From a virus: a stretch of DNA of 39,575 nt. Below are positions 3,813 through 26,327 of the stretch, in pieces (positions within the stretch are counted from its first letter, which is position 1; each line of letters opens with the position of its first letter). The notes beneath the pieces are model-generated. The model was not told the origin of the DNA and searched no databases. It saw nothing but the letters and a program-made list of their open reading frames with translations. The position numbers and the translations under genes are program-made. The stretch lies in the IMG/VR virus record IMGVR_UViG_3300009093_000079, positions 1 to 39,575 of that record. The stretch is one strand, 5' to 3'.

Positions 3813-5594
3813 TTATCCGTTCACGGTGCGAAGCGCCGGGTTGGTGAACGAGACCTCTTCGTTGATGGTCTCGACGTAGGCGAGAGGGACGATCCGCAAG
3901 GTCGCGTTCATCGTCTTCGTGCTGATGAGGTTGTCCGTGCGCGAGAGAACGAACGTCACGTCAGACGCCTTTGCGGGCGTCCCGAGGAGCGCCGCAGCCA
4001 GCTTCGCCGTGACGGTCGCCTCGATCTGACGAGCCGCCCGCTCCTTGATGAAGCCCGTTGCCGCGTCGACCGCGATCGGGACGTTCAGTTCGAGGATCAT
4101 CGCGAGCCGCGAGATCTCTCGCGCGATGTTCATCACGCGCCGATGCGGCATCAACTGGAAGTCAGAGACGTCGGACGAGAAGATGCGCGGACGGTTCACA
4201 TACACGCCGGGGTAGCCCTCGACCGTGCGTGCGACGCAGAAGCGCGCGTCATCGAGACCGGGATTGACCGACTCGTCGTGGTGGAGGGGGTTGCCGTTTG
4301 CGTCGCGGATCTTCGTGACGGGAAGAGCCCCGAAGCCGACCCACGCTGTGTCTACCTCTTGAGAGGAGGCCGCTTCGCGAGCGGCCATGATGTAGCTGAA
4401 CGGCCGGACGTACTTCCGACCGGAGACAGAGGAGATCGTCTCGACACCACCGGCACAGATGGAGCCGAAGACGGTTGTGAAGTCCGCGAACTCGCCGCCG
4501 AGCGACGACTGGTAGGTGGCTTCGCTCTCGTCACCGACCGGGAGGCGCGTGGACGCGACGAAGGCGTGGTACTTGCCGACGCTCGCCATCCCCGAGACCT
4601 TGAGGTCGATCACCTCGGCGTCGTCCGAGTCGCACGGTCCAACGACGTGGACGATCTCCCAGCTCGCGGCGCTGTTCTTCAGCGCGTCGAGGGCGACGCC
4701 GAGATCGGTGGTGTTCCACTTCGGGGCCACCGTCGGGAACGCGATCGTGGCGCCGGCCGCGATCGTCCCGCTCCCGAGGTTGATCTTCACGCCACCGGAC
4801 TCGGGGACGATGATGTACGTCGCCGTCCCGAGCGCGGTCACGGCCGAGTAGGTCCGGCCGTCGTCGAGGCTCCACTGATACGTGACGCCAGCGACACCAC
4901 GGGTGCCACCGTCCACGAACAGGATCCGGACCTCGTAGTCGTCCCAGGGATGCGTCGCGCCATCAAGGGTCGGCGTATTCTGAAGGCCGGAGGTGACGAC
5001 CTCGCCCGCCGAGCCGGCGATCGGCGCCGTCAGGTTGAAGGAGATGAAGTCACCGGCCACGACGGTGCCCGCACCGATAGCGATGGACGCGCCCGTCGCG
5101 CCGATGGCGAAGGTCGTTGACGCTCCGAGCGCGTTCACGACGCCGAAGGTCGCGCCGCCGTCGAGGCTGATCTGGTAGATGATGCCCGGCGTCCCGCGCG
5201 TCCCGCCTACAGGGAACAGGACAACGACGTTCGCGCCGACGGTCGGCGCGGAACTGTTGTCGGTGAAGACCGACGAGCCCGTGCCCGTCTTCGTGATCGC
5301 GCTGATCGAGCCCGCGACCGGCGAGACCGCATCCAGGTAGGAGCCGGCCGTCGTTGCCGTCGTTCGGACGAGCAAGACGGGCCGCCCATACTTCTCGATC
5401 TCGTGGCACGCGGCCTCGACCAGCGGGCCGGACCCGAACGTCGTAACGACGTCGGAGACGCGTGCGAACGTCGCGGGCGTCGCGATCGGTCCCTGCGACG
5501 AGACACCGGCGAGTGCGTACAGTTTCCCCTCGCTCGGAGGGAGAACGCCGAGCTGGTTCTGCAGTTCGTTCTGATTGACCTTGGGCTGAGCCAT
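3813..5594 (-). CDS. Tail sheath protein with a duplicated insertion domain
   Basis: 593 residues from ATG 5594 (MAQPKVNQNELQNQLGVLPP). The C-terminal third carries the sheath core (PGVYVNRPRIF, ISRLAMILELNV, TFTNPALRTVNG-like end, here SFTNPALRTVNG). Residues about 123-190 and 222-290 are two copies of one beta-domain: FPVGGTRGTPGIIYQISLDG versus FVDGGTRGVAGVTYQWSLDD, with similar flanks, about 99 residues apart. This duplicated block sits where other sheaths carry surface-exposed extra domains, so it probably decorates the outside of the tail. The sheath contracts to drive the tube into the host envelope. Confidence 0.88.
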   Translation of the reverse strand: MAQPKVNQNELQNQLGVLPPSEGKLYALAGVSSQGPIATPATFARVSDVVTTFGSGPLVEAACHEIEKYGRPVLLVRTTATTAGSYLDAVSPVAGSISAITKTGTGSSVFTDNSSAPTVGANVVVLFPVGGTRGTPGIIYQISLDGGATFGVVNALGASTTFAIGATGASIAIGAGTVVAGDFISFNLTAPIAGSAGEVVTSGLQNTPTLDGATHPWDDYEVRILFVDGGTRGVAGVTYQWSLDDGRTYSAVTALGTATYIIVPESGGVKINLGSGTIAAGATIAFPTVAPKWNTTDLGVALDALKNSAASWEIVHVVGPCDSDDAEVIDLKVSGMASVGKYHAFVASTRLPVGDESEATYQSSLGGEFADFTTVFGSICAGGVETISSVSGRKYVRPFSYIMAAREAASSQEVDTAWVGFGALPVTKIRDANGNPLHHDESVNPGLDDARFCVARTVEGYPGVYVNRPRIFSSDVSDFQLMPHRRVMNIAREISRLAMILELNVPIAVDAATGFIKERAARQIEATVTAKLAAALLGTPAKASDVTFVLSRTDNLISTKTMNATLRIVPLAYVETINEEVSFTNPALRTVNG

Positions 5595-6559: not shown

Positions 6560-7046
6560 CGGTGCCTCGGCCATTTCGAGTCTCGGCCCGACCGACAAGG
6601 GCCTTCCGGCGCTGTGCGAGCACCGTAGACTGTTCGGAATACACGTAGGGAAGACCCTTCGTGATCCCGTTCGAGTTCACGTCTTCGCGCAAAGGAAGCT
6701 CGAAGAGCCCGGCCTCCGCGTCCGCGGCCTCTTTGATCTCGGTCTCGGCGAGCTGACCGTCGGCCTTGATCGCGTCAAACTCGGCATCGAGCTGGTCGAC
6801 GCCGTGACGGAGGTAGGCGAGCGGCGTGACGATCCGCGTCAACCAGTCTTCGATCGCCTCGGGGACTGGAGTCCCGAAAGGCGTCGCGTATCGCTTTGTG
6901 AGCCGCGAATCGATCCAGCGCGAGCGAGCCGTGAGCTTCGCGAGCAACCACCCTGGAGCAATCGTGTTCTCCAGAAGATCGACCATAGACGCCGGCATCG
7001 CCGTGAGCGTCTTGAATCGTTCGACGGTGATGTAACTCGTGCTCAT
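6552..7046 (-). CDS. Head-tail connector, Mu gp36-like (DUF1320 type)
   Basis: 164 residues (MSTSYITVERFKTLTAMP). The helix-rich core ARSRWIDSRLTKRYATPF followed by PVPEAIEDWLTRIVTPLAY is the pattern of the gp36/DUF1320 and gp6-like adaptor families: a small helical bundle that docks under the portal. The gene lies between the major capsid gene and the gpG-like gene, the same order as in Mu. No enzymatic motif. Confidence 0.68.
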   Translation of the reverse strand: MSTSYITVERFKTLTAMPASMVDLLENTIAPGWLLAKLTARSRWIDSRLTKRYATPFGTPVPEAIEDWLTRIVTPLAYLRHGVDQLDAEFDAIKADGQLAETEIKEAADAEAGLFELPLREDVNSNGITKGLPYVYSEQSTVLAQRRKALVGRAETRNGRGTDG

Positions 7047-9982: not shown

Positions 9983-11310
9983 CAGTTGGGCCCTCCACTC
10001 GGGAGGAGAGCCGGCGTCGAGGCCGGAAGTAGCGTCGCGGTGACGCGAAGCGGGATGCCGAAGTCCTTGGCGACCTGGTCGATGTCGAGCCGGTCGCCGT
10101 AGGCGTTTCGGAGCGCGACAAGGGCGGTAGCCACCTGGCCGAGCGCGGTCGCCCTCGTCGCAACGTCGCGCGGAGGCGTGACATCCCACGAGACGACAGC
10201 CGGGTTGGAGAGAGCCGCGACCCCGAATCGGGTAACAACCCACGCCGGGAGACCCTGCGAGTTGATCGTGAAGGCGAGACCGTCAGCGGTGCTCTGGATG
10301 AGGTCCGCTCGAATGCTCTTGTGAACGTCGGCGTTCGCGAACCCGGTGCCCCCGTCCGTCGTGACGGTCTGACCCGTCACGCAGATCATCATCTCCGTGT
10401 TCGCGGCGGAGATCGTCTCGCCGAAGCACTTGTAGCCGGTGCCGTTCGATTCGAGGATCGAAAGCTTGTATCCGGGCTTGAGTCCAAAAAAGGTATTGAG
10501 ACCCCAAGCGCCAGTTACGCGCTTGAAGAATTCCATCACGATATTGTCGGACGCGCCGGCCGGTGCCTCGGCTACGATCGCTGGATTAGCCAGCGTGTTC
10601 TCGTAGTTATCTTTGGCGAGTCCCGCGTTCTCCTTCCGGATGAACGAGCGCGCGACGGCCTTCCAGATTCCTGCGTTCCACGGAGCGATCCGTCCACCGG
10701 GCGTGTGTAGAATCCAGCGTCCATCGCCCGGCGTGATCGGGAGATTCCCGAGTGCGGAGCGGTAGAACCAGCAGCCGGCGAACCAGTCGTACCAGAGATA
10801 CTCCGGATCGAGGCGGACGAGGACAGGATGGTCGCGGCCCGGGACCGGGCGCATCTCTCCGACACCAACGCCGAGGAGCGTCCCGTCTGCTGCGAGCAAG
10901 GCCAGCTCGGACGGCGGGAACATCTCATCGAATGTCGAGCGAACAGCCCCGACCGTCGATTCAAGCTCTTGGACGATCTCGTCCGCGCCAGCGAACGTCT
11001 TCGGGAGACGAACAAGGCCGTCCGTACGAGTCGAGAGGACACCCGCGAGAATTCCATCCCGGCGGGCCGAACGCATGAGCTTGGCGGCCGGTCCGAGGTC
11101 ACCCTTGTCCGCTGCACGCTCAGCGTATTCGAGATCCGCGAGATAGAACTCGGTCCGCGTCGTCGGCATCGGCGACAACTGCCCGCCAAAGGCCTTACGA
11201 CGCGCGTCGATCTCGGGGTCGCCGAGGGACGGCATAGATGCGGCTACGCCGTGCGGACGGTCGTATGCCGACAGTCCGAGGAGAGCGCCGAGTCTATCGA
11301 GCAATCCCAC
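9982..11310 (-). CDS. Portal protein
   Basis: 442 residues from ATG 11310 (MGLLDRLGALLGLSAYDRP). Shows a long N-terminal helical section (LADLEYAERAADKGDLGPAA), a RRDGILAGVLSTRTDGLVRL segment as in other portals, and a central aromatic-rich wing (LDPEYLWYDWFAGCWFYRS). Size and place right after large terminase fit the Mu gp29-type portal. The protein forms the dodecameric DNA entry channel and binds the terminase. Confidence 0.82.
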   Translation of the reverse strand: MGLLDRLGALLGLSAYDRPHGVAASMPSLGDPEIDARRKAFGGQLSPMPTTRTEFYLADLEYAERAADKGDLGPAAKLMRSARRDGILAGVLSTRTDGLVRLPKTFAGADEIVQELESTVGAVRSTFDEMFPPSELALLAADGTLLGVGVGEMRPVPGRDHPVLVRLDPEYLWYDWFAGCWFYRSALGNLPITPGDGRWILHTPGGRIAPWNAGIWKAVARSFIRKENAGLAKDNYENTLANPAIVAEAPAGASDNIVMEFFKRVTGAWGLNTFFGLKPGYKLSILESNGTGYKCFGETISAANTEMMICVTGQTVTTDGGTGFANADVHKSIRADLIQSTADGLAFTINSQGLPAWVVTRFGVAALSNPAVVSWDVTPPRDVATRATALGQVATALVALRNAYGDRLDIDQVAKDFGIPLRVTATLLPASTPALLPSGGPN

Positions 11311-15175: not shown

Positions 15176-15610
15176 TCAGATTTCGCGAGGCCACCGATAG
15201 TCGAGGACGCGAGAGACCGGATACGCGTGGATGCAGACCCGATTCTGCTGATTACCCCCGAGCATCATGAAGGTCCCGACCGCCACACCGGCGCCGACAA
15301 AGAACCCGACGTGACCGTGAGGACCCTTCGGATCGCCACGAAACAGGACCGTGATCGCTCCGATCGGCGGCGTCGGGCCGACGCTCACGCCGTACCGCAG
15401 CCACGAGCGAGCCGCGCCCGAGTGCGTGATCGGATAGCCCGCCTGCTCCATGCACCAGTTGATGAAGCTGGAACACCACGGGACGTCGTCATCCTGGGCC
15501 GTACCAGCGACCAACTGATATTCCTCGATCCGCGGGTTGCTACCCTTCGGCCCGACGACCTCTTTGACGCCGATCTCACCGCGAGCGATCTTCAACCACA
15601 GAGGTTCCAT
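15176..15610 (-). CDS. Endolysin, TIGR02594-type peptidoglycan hydrolase (NlpC/P60-like)
   Basis: 144 residues from ATG 15610. The sequence WLKIARGEIGVKEVVGPK, then DDVPWCSSFINWCMEQAGY, then GPHGHVGFFVG is the TIGR02594/CHAP-like pattern, with catalytic Cys46 and His100 visible. No signal peptide, so release through a holin is expected. It sits near the start of the late region, while the membrane-protein genes that could be holin and spanins are at its far end (30.3-32.4 kb). Confidence 0.8.
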   Translation of the reverse strand: MEPLWLKIARGEIGVKEVVGPKGSNPRIEEYQLVAGTAQDDDVPWCSSFINWCMEQAGYPITHSGAARSWLRYGVSVGPTPPIGAITVLFRGDPKGPHGHVGFFVGAGVAVGTFMMLGGNQQNRVCIHAYPVSRVLDYRWPREI

Positions 15611-16332: not shown

Positions 16333-16869
16333 TTATTCGGACGCGTTGGCTTTCTCGCGAAGAAGCTTGGCCTTCTCCTTGCCGGAGCGGATAGCTTCTC
16401 CCAATCGAGCGCGCATCTCCGGCGTCCACACCCTCTCGCGCTTCTCACGGGCGACGTTCTCGCGGTGCGCGTCAGTCCAGGTGTGCTTCCGCTGCGGCTT
16501 CGGAAGCGACGCCTTGAGCCGCCGACGCGATCCGAAACGCATCGTCGACTGATCCGCGAACATCCACGCGAGGAGGTCCAGCAGCGTCTCGACGCCGTCT
16601 TGCGTCGCCTCGCGTGCCTCCGTCAGCTCGTACGTGAGCGAGGCGTCGATCGTCCCGTTCGCGTAAGACAGGGTGAAGAGGCCGCGTCCGGGCTCGTAGG
16701 CGGTCGCTGGTGCCCCTTCGGGCTCGGGCGCGTGGTAGAGGCCGACGAGGTAGCCGATCGCCTCGTCGAGCGAGACGCCCATCTCGTCGCGGATCTCGCG
16801 GAGCTGGCGGAGCGACTCCTCGCTCATCGTGACGGTGGTCTTCGGGCTCGGGGGCGGCTTATATGTCAC
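16333..16869 (-). CDS. Ribbon-helix-helix type DNA-binding protein
   Basis: 178 residues from GTG 16869, which overlaps the stop of the zinc-ribbon gene (GTGA); this fixes the start. Residues about 11-45 (KTTVTMSEESLRQLREIRDE) fit a ribbon-helix-helix of the Arc/CopG kind. The C-terminal 60 residues are very basic (RRRLKASLPKPQRKHTWTDA), with a repeated W-T-x-x-x-R pattern similar to NUMOD-type DNA-binding helices. Likely a DNA-binding regulator of the late region or a packaging accessory. Confidence 0.6.
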   Translation of the reverse strand: MTYKPPPSPKTTVTMSEESLRQLREIRDEMGVSLDEAIGYLVGLYHAPEPEGAPATAYEPGRGLFTLSYANGTIDASLTYELTEAREATQDGVETLLDLLAWMFADQSTMRFGSRRRLKASLPKPQRKHTWTDAHRENVAREKRERVWTPEMRARLGEAIRSGKEKAKLLREKANASE

Positions 16870-23914: not shown

Positions 23915-24367
23915 ATGGAAGAACGAAACGAGATTCTGTGCGTGGTTCGCGAAGTGACCATGACGTACGGCGCGGAGCGCGAGCTACCCGCGACGATCGC
24001 TAGCTCGCGGGACGTGATCGCCTTCGCGAGGGAACTACTCGGGAAGCGCGTCACGGAGAGCTTCCTCGTGATCGCGATCGACTCGCGGCAACGCCCGGTC
24101 GGATGGTCCGAGGTCGCGCGAGGTTCGACCTCCGCGTGTCCGGTCGCTCCGGGCGACGCCTATCGCTTCGCGATCCACGTCGCGGCCTCGGCGGTGATCC
24201 TAGTGCACAACCATCCCAGCGGCGATCCCTTCCCATCGGCCGAGGACGTCAATCTGACCGAGAGACTCGTGAAGGGAGGCGACCTTCTCGGGATCAAAGT
24301 TCTCGACCACGTGATCGTGACTCGCTCCCTCTCGTTCTCGTTTCTCGATGCGGGGTTGCTCCGATGA
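23915..24367 (+). CDS. RadC-type JAB/MPN domain protein
   Basis: 150 residues from ATG 23915. The JAMM metal motif is complete: His98-Asn-His100-Pro-Ser-Gly followed by Asp111 (HNHPSGDPFPSAED). The sequence around SFLVIAIDSRQRPVGWSEV and VAPGDAYRFAIHVAASAVIL is typical of the RadC family. It lacks the N-terminal helix-hairpin-helix of full RadC, so it is the short phage/plasmid form. The true role of these proteins is unsettled. Here it is the first gene of the integrase operon. Confidence 0.85.
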   Translation: MEERNEILCVVREVTMTYGAERELPATIASSRDVIAFARELLGKRVTESFLVIAIDSRQRPVGWSEVARGSTSACPVAPGDAYRFAIHVAASAVILVHNHPSGDPFPSAEDVNLTERLVKGGDLLGIKVLDHVIVTRSLSFSFLDAGLLR

Positions 24368-24614
24368 CCCGGCACGCTTTCTCGGTGGGCGTAAGAGCCT
24401 CGTGGCCGACGCCAAGACCGACCCGCTCGAACGAATCGCAGACGCACTCGAAGCGCTCGTGTCGATCGAGCGCGAGCGCGACGCCCGCAGGAAGCGCGGA
24501 CGGGCTCCCGAACCGGAGCCCGTGCCGAAGATCGTGGTTCGGCCCGAGACGCGCGAGGCCGCGCGCTTGGCGCTCGCTCGCGCCGGTCTCGTGGGTCCGA
24601 AGCGCGGGAGGTAG
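24348..24614 (+). CDS. Small charged protein between RadC-like and integrase genes
   Basis: 88 residues if ATG 24348 is used (20-base overlap with the RadC-like gene), or 70 from GTG 24402. The conserved-looking part is DPLERIADALEALVSIERER, then a basic Pro/Glu linker and REAARLALARAGLVGPKRGR. Small basic proteins just before int often act as recombination directionality factors, but no excisionase motif is obvious. Ends three bases before the integrase start. Confidence 0.55.
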   Translation: MRGCSDDPARFLGGRKSLVADAKTDPLERIADALEALVSIERERDARRKRGRAPEPEPVPKIVVRPETREAARLALARAGLVGPKRGR

Positions 24615-24617
24615 GTC

Positions 24618-26327
24618 GTGACGGAGCGGGCGATGAGGGGTAGCGGGAAGATCGAGACCGACAAGAAGGGGCGCCACCGCGTCCGCTTCGAGATCCGCGG
24701 CAAGAGCAAGAGCTTCTACCTGCCGAAGGGCGCCTCGAAGCAAGACGCAATCGAGTACCGCGAGGCGCTCCGGCTCCAGCTCGCGGGCACGCCGAACGAT
24801 CCCGCGCTCGGGAAGCGCGAGACGCTCGGCACGCACGCGATGGAGTGGCTCGAAGAGCGCGCGAAGACGCATCGAGATGCCCGCGGCGATCGTCAGCGAT
24901 GGGACCACTACCTGAGCGGGACAGACATCGCCGGGAAAGACCTCGGCGACCTCCGCCCGACGGACATGTACGAGTTCGGACGCGGACTCGTCTCGCGAAA
25001 GAACGAGCGACGCGGCGGCGTGATCTCGCGTCAGACGGCGAAGAACATCTGGAACACCGTGCGGGCCGTGATCCGGAGCGCGATGCGCGCGCAGAAGCTG
25101 GACGCGGGGCTCGGCGCTCAGCTTCGAGCGGTCGAGCTTTCTCTCTCGCCGATCGAAGCCTCCGGTCTCGTCGAGATGGACGAGCGCGTCGTCTTCCTCG
25201 ACCGCGCAGAGATCGCGCGCGTCTTCGCGCTCGACCTCACCGACGAGCAGCGGAGCGTTCTGACGGTCGCGCTCTGGGCTGGGCTTCGGCAAGGAGAACT
25301 CGCGGGGCTGCGGTGGGAACGGTGCATGTGGGACGACGGCGCGAACGGAGAGATCATCGTCGCGCGATCGCGACAGAAGGCGACGAAGGGCGGGATGGTC
25401 GCACGCGTGCCGATGCTCCCGCCGGTTCGCAAGGCGCTCCGCGCTCGATGGGTCGCCGCAGGTCGCCCGGCCTCCGGCTTCATCTGGCCGGTGAAGAAGG
25501 GAAAGAACAAGGGCGGCTGCTACTCGGACGGGTACGACTGGCGCTGGAGCGACGACCACGGCGAGAAGTTCCTCACCTTCGGGATCCGTCGTCGCGCTCT
25601 CGTGCGCCCCGAGGTCACGTTCCACGCGTGGCGTCATACGTGCGGCGTCGGGCTCCTCCGCGGGTGGTGGGTCGAGGAAGGGATCGTCCCCGAGCGGTAC
25701 ACTATGACGATGGTGAGCCGCATGCTCCGCCACCGTTCGGTCGGCGTCACGGAGCGCTTCTACGCGAACCTCAGCGCCGCCGATCTCCCGACGAACGTGA
25801 ACCGCTCGGACGACGAGGACGAGGGCTCGGGCGGCGCGAATGATGGGTCAGAAAAGCCCACGAAAACGGAGGCCGAAAATCCGGGTACCGGTGGGTACCG
25901 TAAGGTACCGGTGCCCGATCTATCGTCCGCCTTCGAGCCCGAATCCCCCACGAATTCAGGCTCGGAAAAGCCGCCTCGGAGATTTGAACTCCGGACCTAC
26001 GGTTTACGAACGGCTCCTTCGAACGACGAATCACACAGTAACCATGGAGGATCGTCCTCGGAGCCGGTACCTAAGAAAGTCGCGGGCGGTACCGGTTCGC
26101 TCCGCGAGGTCGCGATGGACCTACTTCGTGCGATTCGCGACGGCTCGCCGGACCTCGTCGAACTCGCGGCGCGGCTCGCGCTCCTCGCCGTCGAGGCCGA
26201 GCCGACCGTCACGCGCCACTTTGAGGTCGAGGACGGCCGGGTGATCAGCGCCCACACGACGATCACCGGAGCGGCGCCCGAGCGATCGCGACCGAGGGCG
26301 GAGAGGTCGAAGCGGGCGATGGCGTAG
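24618..26327 (+). CDS. int: Tyrosine integrase whose coding sequence contains attP
   Basis: 569 residues from GTG 24618, with GGGAGG upstream. N-terminal arm-binding domain (KKGRHRVRFEIRGKSKSFYL), core-binding helices, then the catalytic residues Arg224 (GLRQGELAGLRW), His336 and Arg339 (HAWRHTCGVG), His372 (MLRHRSVG) and Tyr382 (RFYANLS), all in normal order. The catalytic domain ends near residue 390. Some 75 low-complexity codons follow, then a segment (PPRRFELRTYGLR) that is the antisense of a tRNA 3' half, then about 105 more residues. Integration through this site would replace everything after about residue 464 with host-encoded sequence but leave the catalytic domain whole. Mx8 of Myxococcus has the same arrangement, with attP inside its int gene. 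Confidence 0.93.
   Translation: MTERAMRGSGKIETDKKGRHRVRFEIRGKSKSFYLPKGASKQDAIEYREALRLQLAGTPNDPALGKRETLGTHAMEWLEERAKTHRDARGDRQRWDHYLSGTDIAGKDLGDLRPTDMYEFGRGLVSRKNERRGGVISRQTAKNIWNTVRAVIRSAMRAQKLDAGLGAQLRAVELSLSPIEASGLVEMDERVVFLDRAEIARVFALDLTDEQRSVLTVALWAGLRQGELAGLRWERCMWDDGANGEIIVARSRQKATKGGMVARVPMLPPVRKALRARWVAAGRPASGFIWPVKKGKNKGGCYSDGYDWRWSDDHGEKFLTFGIRRRALVRPEVTFHAWRHTCGVGLLRGWWVEEGIVPERYTMTMVSRMLRHRSVGVTERFYANLSAADLPTNVNRSDDEDEGSGGANDGSEKPTKTEAENPGTGGYRKVPVPDLSSAFEPESPTNSGSEKPPRRFELRTYGLRTAPSNDESHSNHGGSSSEPVPKKVAGGTGSLREVAMDLLRAIRDGSPDLVELAARLALLAVEAEPTVTRHFEVEDGRVISAHTTITGAAPERSRPRAERSKRAMA
25884..25910 (+). repeat. Left integrase arm sites, three GGTACCG at 10-base spacing
   Basis: GGTACC at 25884, 25894 and 25904, each followed by G, spaced exactly one helical turn. 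The three copies fall in three different reading frames of int, so the repetition is kept at DNA level and not for protein. About 60 bases from the tRNA-like core. Proposed P-arm binding sites. Confidence 0.65.
25969..26010 (-). other. attP: attP core: 3' half of tRNA-Thr(CGU)
   Basis: On the minus strand this reads as tRNA positions 32-73: anticodon loop TTCGTAA (anticodon CGT), 3' side of the anticodon stem ACCGT, variable loop AGGTC, T arm CGGAG-TTCAAAT-CTCCG, acceptor 3' strand AGGCGGC and discriminator T. The 5' side of the anticodon stem does not pair (AGCCG instead of ACGGT), so similarity stops at the anticodon loop, a known crossover place for tyrosine integrases. Not a functional tRNA gene by itself. 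Confidence 0.8.
26066..26093 (+). repeat. Right integrase arm sites, two GGTACC
   Basis: GGTACC at 26066-26071 and 26088-26093, 22 bases (two turns) apart, about 56 bases from the core on the other side from the triple repeat. Both also lie inside int. Proposed P'-arm binding sites. Confidence 0.55.

Follow-up and report, generated by a model that had tools for sequence, protein, structure and literature searches.

A tRNA-Thr half and candidate arm sites within a phage tyrosine integrase gene point to exchange of the integrase tail on integration

We have found that a stretch of viral DNA of 39,575 nucleotides (IMG/VR record IMGVR_UViG_3300009093_000079, positions 1 to 39,575; hereafter the window) carries half of a tRNA-Thr(CGU) gene within the coding sequence of a tyrosine integrase (Int). 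Taken as a whole, the evidence is very probably best explained by a complete attP embedded in the phage's own integrase gene, with an exchange of the integrase tail on integration like that of bacteriophage Mx8. The layout itself is already known from Mx8, and what is new is how widespread it is; the design is common in myxobacterial elements and is not peculiar to the window phage.

Results

The integrase gene that spans the candidate attP occupies positions 24618-26327 (plus strand), starts with GTG and encodes 569 amino acids. In addition to the open reading frame itself, its assignment as a phage tyrosine integrase comes from a profile match to phrog_1 (integrase, E 7e-32) and from its fold, the model of the protein matching Tn1549 Int (E 1e-9) and lambda Int (E 1e-7) in Foldseek; the PF00589 profile scored 24.2 bits, under the cut-off of 27.1. 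The catalytic residues R-K-H-R-H-Y occur in order and were placed by alignment at R224, K257, H336, R339, H372 and Y382, with K257, R339, H372 and Y382 invariant in a 13-row alignment. The AlphaFold2 model (mean pLDDT 66.5) begins with a beta-sheet domain at the N terminus, followed by the core-binding domain and then by a catalytic domain that extends to residue 391; the catalytic domain is delimited by alignments and model together as residues 196-391 (25203-25790, plus strand). Residues 11-56 (24648-24785, plus strand; pLDDT about 80) are modelled as three beta strands and a helix, a layout that suggests an arm-binding domain. Residues 393-494 are modelled as unstructured; beyond them the model has, with low confidence, two helices and a beta hairpin.

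The minus strand at 25969-26010 is identical over 42 bp to positions 73-32 of tRNA-Thr(CGU) and reads, from 26010 to 25969, TTCGTAAACCGTAGGTCCGGAGTTCAAATCTCCGAGGCGGCT. This part of the attP core (25968-26010, minus strand) runs from the anticodon loop, beginning at tRNA position 32, through the CGU anticodon, the anticodon stem, the variable loop, the T arm with its 5-bp stem (CGGAG/CTCCG) and the acceptor 3' strand to the discriminator base, a U, and so has the form of a tRNA-targeted attP of the anticodon-loop type. ARAGORN detected no complete tRNA in the window. The core lies in the integrase frame 3' of the catalytic tyrosine, as in Mx8: the Tyr382 codon is at 25761-25763 (plus strand), about 205 bp 5' of the core, which is translated as about residues 451-464 of Int, with TYGLR as residues 460-464. 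What follows is a C-terminal tail of 105 residues (465-569; 26010-26324, plus strand) that is expected to be lost on integration and left at attR. The original prediction, of a 42-base tRNA-Thr(CGU) 3' half with a paired T arm that stops at the anticodon loop, of an attP within the integrase coding sequence, and of a tail of about 105 residues beyond an intact Tyr382 and catalytic core, thus proved exact as to the tRNA half, the length of the tail and the tyrosine, and the core does sit within the 24618-26327 frame with GGTACC repeats on either side. Since phage head and tail genes flank the core on both sides, the window represents the unintegrated form.

An exact scan found the 43 bp at 25968-26010 of the window in one unrelated viral contig, IMGVR_UViG_3300031507_000019 (L002), where they again lie antisense within an integrase gene but in a different reading frame. 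The two integrases are 30% identical overall and 39% across the matched segment. That a different integrase reads the same 43 bp in another frame indicates that the half tRNA is conserved as DNA itself and is a signal at the DNA level. A degenerate core scan of viral contigs returned 23 contigs and, with L021 and L023 merged on account of their identical sequence around the core, 13 phages (the window and 12 others) have half of a tRNA-Thr(CGU) antisense within an integrase frame after the catalytic tyrosine. All three frames are used across these 13 cores (TYGLR, PTVYE and DLRF), and the tails are about 50-110 residues long. L014, L018, L024 and L025 have a complete tRNA with an ordinary integrase close by, and L005 is simply a tRNA-rich contig. 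In L015 the half tRNA-Thr (4828-4870) lies 22 bp 3' of the integrase frame and, unlike the others, in the same orientation as the integrase. The half tRNAs of L008 (about 963-1005) and L010 (about 11226-11268) lie in integrases of a lineage outside the main clade described below.

Five GGTACC repeats, at 25884, 25894, 25904, 26066 and 26088, surround the core at offsets of -86, -76, -66, +55 and +77. The window contains 12 copies of GGTACC against 3.9 expected, and the flanking set of five has p = 2e-4, the lowest value that the 5000 dinucleotide shuffles allow. Extended to 10 bases, the motif reads GGTACCGGtg. The candidate left arm sites are three tandem 10-bp repeats, GGTACCGGTG, GGTACCGTAA and GGTACCGGTG (25884-25913, plus strand); the candidate right arm sites are GGTACCGGCT on the minus strand (26062-26071), the site at 26066 being in reverse orientation, and GGTACCGGTT (26088-26097, plus strand). 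The stretch modelled as unstructured is encoded by the DNA that holds the core, the candidate left arm sites and most of the candidate right ones. The repeats have the layout that had been claimed for them, three to the left at 10-base spacing and two to the right 22 bases apart, and they do differ in reading frame, their offsets from the start codon of int being 0, 1, 2, 2 and 0 modulo 3. The gap between repeats and core, put at 56-60 bases, is 58 bp on the left and 55 bp on the right, the latter just under that range but close to it. Similar arrangements occur in relatives. When the best two-sided 6-mer within 100 bp of the core was scored at 15 attP sites, with 42 stretches from the same loci as controls, enrichment was found at the attP sites (Fisher p 1.3e-5) and not at the control stretches (0.999). 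The motifs vary by phage (GGTACC, GGGAAC, CGTGGA, TCCCCA, GGACAC, CACCAA) and are often similarly placed, about 10-12 bp apart and roughly 45-90 bp from the core; in attP sites of relatives joined from attL and attR, GATTGGTCAA occurs at -59, -48 and +43, and TGCACCCCAA at -92, -80 and +64. Clear two-sided repeats are lacking in some relatives (L007-L010, L019, L022, L148 and L152). We infer that the GGTACC repeats are arm sites bound by Int.

The integrated state is seen in relatives from the Myxococcota. The best match in a profile scan of GTDB contigs was to a Myxococcales MAG (L026), whose integrase enters a complete tRNA-Thr(CGU) gene and has its stop codon in the antisense D arm; the integrases of L026, L114 and L126 all end in ...TYGLRNRCSTN within complete tRNA-Thr(CGU) genes. 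Two further copies of the core on the L026 contig are each followed by an orphan integrase tail in frame. Across 290 genomes of the same class we found 30 loci, and most of the best matches among them enter a complete tRNA on the opposite strand, namely Thr(CGT), Gly(CCC), several Arg or Lys(TTT), the other integrases ending in, or running through, Gly, Arg and Lys tRNA genes. In three genomes we found a matching attR, with an orphan integrase tail in frame behind a direct repeat of 46-47 bp. The repeat shared by attL and attR is 47 bp in G016 and 46 bp in G216, and joining attL to attR in silico gives full-length integrases with tails of 48-70 residues in place of 6 residues in the prophage. 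Counted from stop to stop, the joined integrase has 465 codons against 423 integrated in G016 and 575 against 511 in G216, where attL and attR are on separate contigs. Where the D arm, read antisense, supplies a TGA, the host-encoded end is just NRCSTN, 6 residues; in other tRNA-Thr alleles there is no TGA in frame and the addition would be about 20, 37 or more residues, so how long the replacement end is varies with the allele of the host. The predicted swap of the integrase tail is therefore supported through relatives, both by the truncated integrases of L026, L114 and L126 and by the in-frame orphan tails at attR.

Two side observations concern these integrated elements. A Myxococcales contig (G002 contig C149; L111 and L112) has copies of the tRNA-Thr core at 6761-6794, 15242-15275 and 16390-16423, one an attL and two attR-like, each of the latter with a conserved orphan tail, a pattern which suggests that elements integrated at this one tRNA repeatedly or in tandem. 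On contig C8 of G016 (276009-281353; L147, L150), attL and attR are 5.3 kb apart, making this a very small element of the attP-in-int type.

In a tree of 128 integrases, a clade of 45 (support 100/100) includes 34 with the att site inside the gene. The window Int is sister (support 88/92) to that of L126, an element integrated in tRNA-Thr(CGU) with an identical core frame. L008, L010 and L084 fall outside the clade of 45; we did not retain a single origin of the trait on this account, even though the main clade is strong, and the layout may, judging from the tree, have arisen more than once. Mx8 IntP forms a long branch outside the clade, its exact position being unsure. Among 26 tails, the window tail resembles L149, the orphan attR tail of the L126 element (E 1.5e-4), a resemblance that ties the window to a natural before/after pair. 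Clear similarity among tails is confined to subgroups, and we rejected the idea of one tail family joining all the phages; the Mx8 tail looks alike by eye but scores E 0.03 or worse. The dN/dS of tails in relatives is about 0.3 in the best-sampled groups, because of which the tails appear to be translated and constrained, and 0.6-0.8 in other pairs.

Single-sequence searches with the window Int returned no relative among the viral contigs or, by tblastn, among phage records. The exact 42-mer core had no match in the GTDB collection, and with up to 1 or 3 mismatches it had none in 379 Myxococcota genomes or in 34 genomes from the family to which L126 belongs. While the expected integration into tRNA-Thr(CGU) and the matching attL and attR were thus recovered for relatives, a prophage of the window phage itself was not found in the GTDB and Myxococcota collections examined. 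With capsid and terminase as baits we found no close relative that carries int, only an 11-kb fragment identical to the window phage.

Discussion

We propose that Int recombines the core with a host tRNA-Thr gene near the anticodon loop, as is seen in relatives and would be the case for the window phage. The 3' half borne by the phage would rebuild the host tRNA after integration. At attL, int would then continue into the 5' half of the tRNA, read antisense, and end after a short distance, and attR would keep the right arms together with the orphaned integrase tail. The phage form of the enzyme would be the long Int of 569 residues and the prophage form would have about 464 of these residues followed by a short end encoded by the host; the N-terminal, core-binding and catalytic parts would be retained in both, and excision would bring back the long form. 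Most likely, by analogy with Mx8, loss of the tail would lower the activity of the prophage Int or shift its site preference, helping to hold the prophage in place until excision. That the window phage exchanges its tail in this way is inferred from its relatives.

In Mx8, attP lies within intP and integration is reported to swap 112 C-terminal residues for 13, an exchange reported to alter the activity or specificity of IntP (PMC4701971, PMC6070905). The window resembles Mx8 in having a tRNA 3' fragment antisense within the coding sequence of a tyrosine integrase, past the catalytic domain, but differs in its target, tRNA-Thr(CGU), and in a core that starts with the anticodon loop, whereas the visible tRNA match of Mx8 is the T arm and acceptor end. 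The two enzymes are not close, there being no tblastn match to the window Int in phages and IntP lying outside the clade. SSV-type (suicidal) archaeal integrases likewise have an att site within the integrase gene, but there integration parts Int(N) from Int(C), which holds the catalytic domain (PMC8371274), whereas in the window residues 1-391 precede the core, the catalytic domain would stay whole and the tail alone would be lost. Islander class A elements, in which crossover is at the anticodon loop and the tRNA gene is made whole again by a 3' fragment that starts at this loop, have a core like that of the window, but their integrase gene usually does not span the att core, Mx8 and SSV being named as exceptions (PMC4383910); in the window it does.

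It is possible, with about an even chance in our judgement, that the Mx8 layout is normal across a large integrase clade of Myxococcota phages and islands, in which the whole attP, core and arms, occupies linker DNA and the tail acts as a switch of Int set by the state of integration. The linker would be the disordered stretch that separates the catalytic domain from a C-terminal tail under constraint, and integration into various tRNA genes would remove the tail, the antisense D arm often supplying the stop codon. Alternatively, the att site could be real and the frame through it a tolerated by-product, antisense tRNA halves being open in all frames, with a harmless tail and equivalent long and short forms of Int. 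The core is indeed translated in all three frames, the tails vary greatly among phages, and the att region encodes a stretch predicted to be disordered (393-494). Nevertheless, tails are conserved within subgroups at a dN/dS of about 0.3, one orphan tail at an attR is recognisably related to the window tail, the layout recurs across the whole clade and at several target tRNAs, and the two forms of Mx8 Int reportedly differ in activity. We therefore think it unlikely that the tail is a mere by-product.

We consider it quite unlikely that the GGTACC repeats are sites of a directionality factor or of another DNA-binding protein rather than arm sites of Int. GGTACC is palindromic, and excisionases can bind tandem direct repeats close to att cores, which counts in favour of such a factor. 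Against this, the repeats lie on either side of the core, other attP sites have other sequences at similar positions, and the model of Int includes an N-terminal domain that looks like an arm-binding domain. We note that an 88-residue open reading frame without a family match (24348-24614) ends just 5' of int; it is possible that it encodes the directionality factor.

A further alternative, which we regard as improbable, is that the tail is mainly a degradation tag, such that the phage Int is short-lived and the prophage Int stable, as with mycobacteriophage repressors. An equivalent gene logic exists in the integration-dependent immunity of mycobacteriophages, where attP lies within the repressor gene and the prophage protein is shorter, a host stop codon lying near attL (PMC9934374). 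The window shares with these phages an attP in a coding gene and would likewise leave a 3' remnant at attR, but the interrupted gene is that of the integrase, not of a repressor, and an ssrA-like tag is only hypothesised. Small nonpolar ends are found in the window (...KRAMA), L004 (...RRLA), L010 (...GVLA) and L002 (...ARSA), but there is no common end motif, other tails ending in VGGRR, DESEAS, HAHL or SGWDR, and the part of the tails under selection exceeds the length of a tag. Lastly, phages do carry tRNA genes, as tRNA-rich L005 illustrates, but chance capture of a tRNA or a remnant tRNA gene with no role in integration is hardly credible and was rejected, since a half tRNA recurs at the equivalent place in many integrases and, for relatives, natural attL/attR pairs with restored tRNAs already refute it.

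Returning to an attP embedded in int, its recurrence turns Mx8 from a single-phage curiosity into a comparative system of many integrases and several tRNA targets with natural before/after pairs, in which the role of the lost tail, the reason for placing att within int, and whether the state of integration is read through the enzyme become testable. It also accounts for predicted myxobacterial integrases that end in tRNA-derived peptides such as TYGLRNRCSTN.

The 11-kb fragment recovered with the capsid and terminase baits (IMGVR_UViG_3300025913_000393; L153, L154) carries both proteins at 100% identity and is, judged by this identity, a piece of the window phage in a second record. Adjoining the integrase, positions 23915-24367 of the window match the DNA repair protein family phrog_10276 (E 4e-29) and appear RadC-like by eye.
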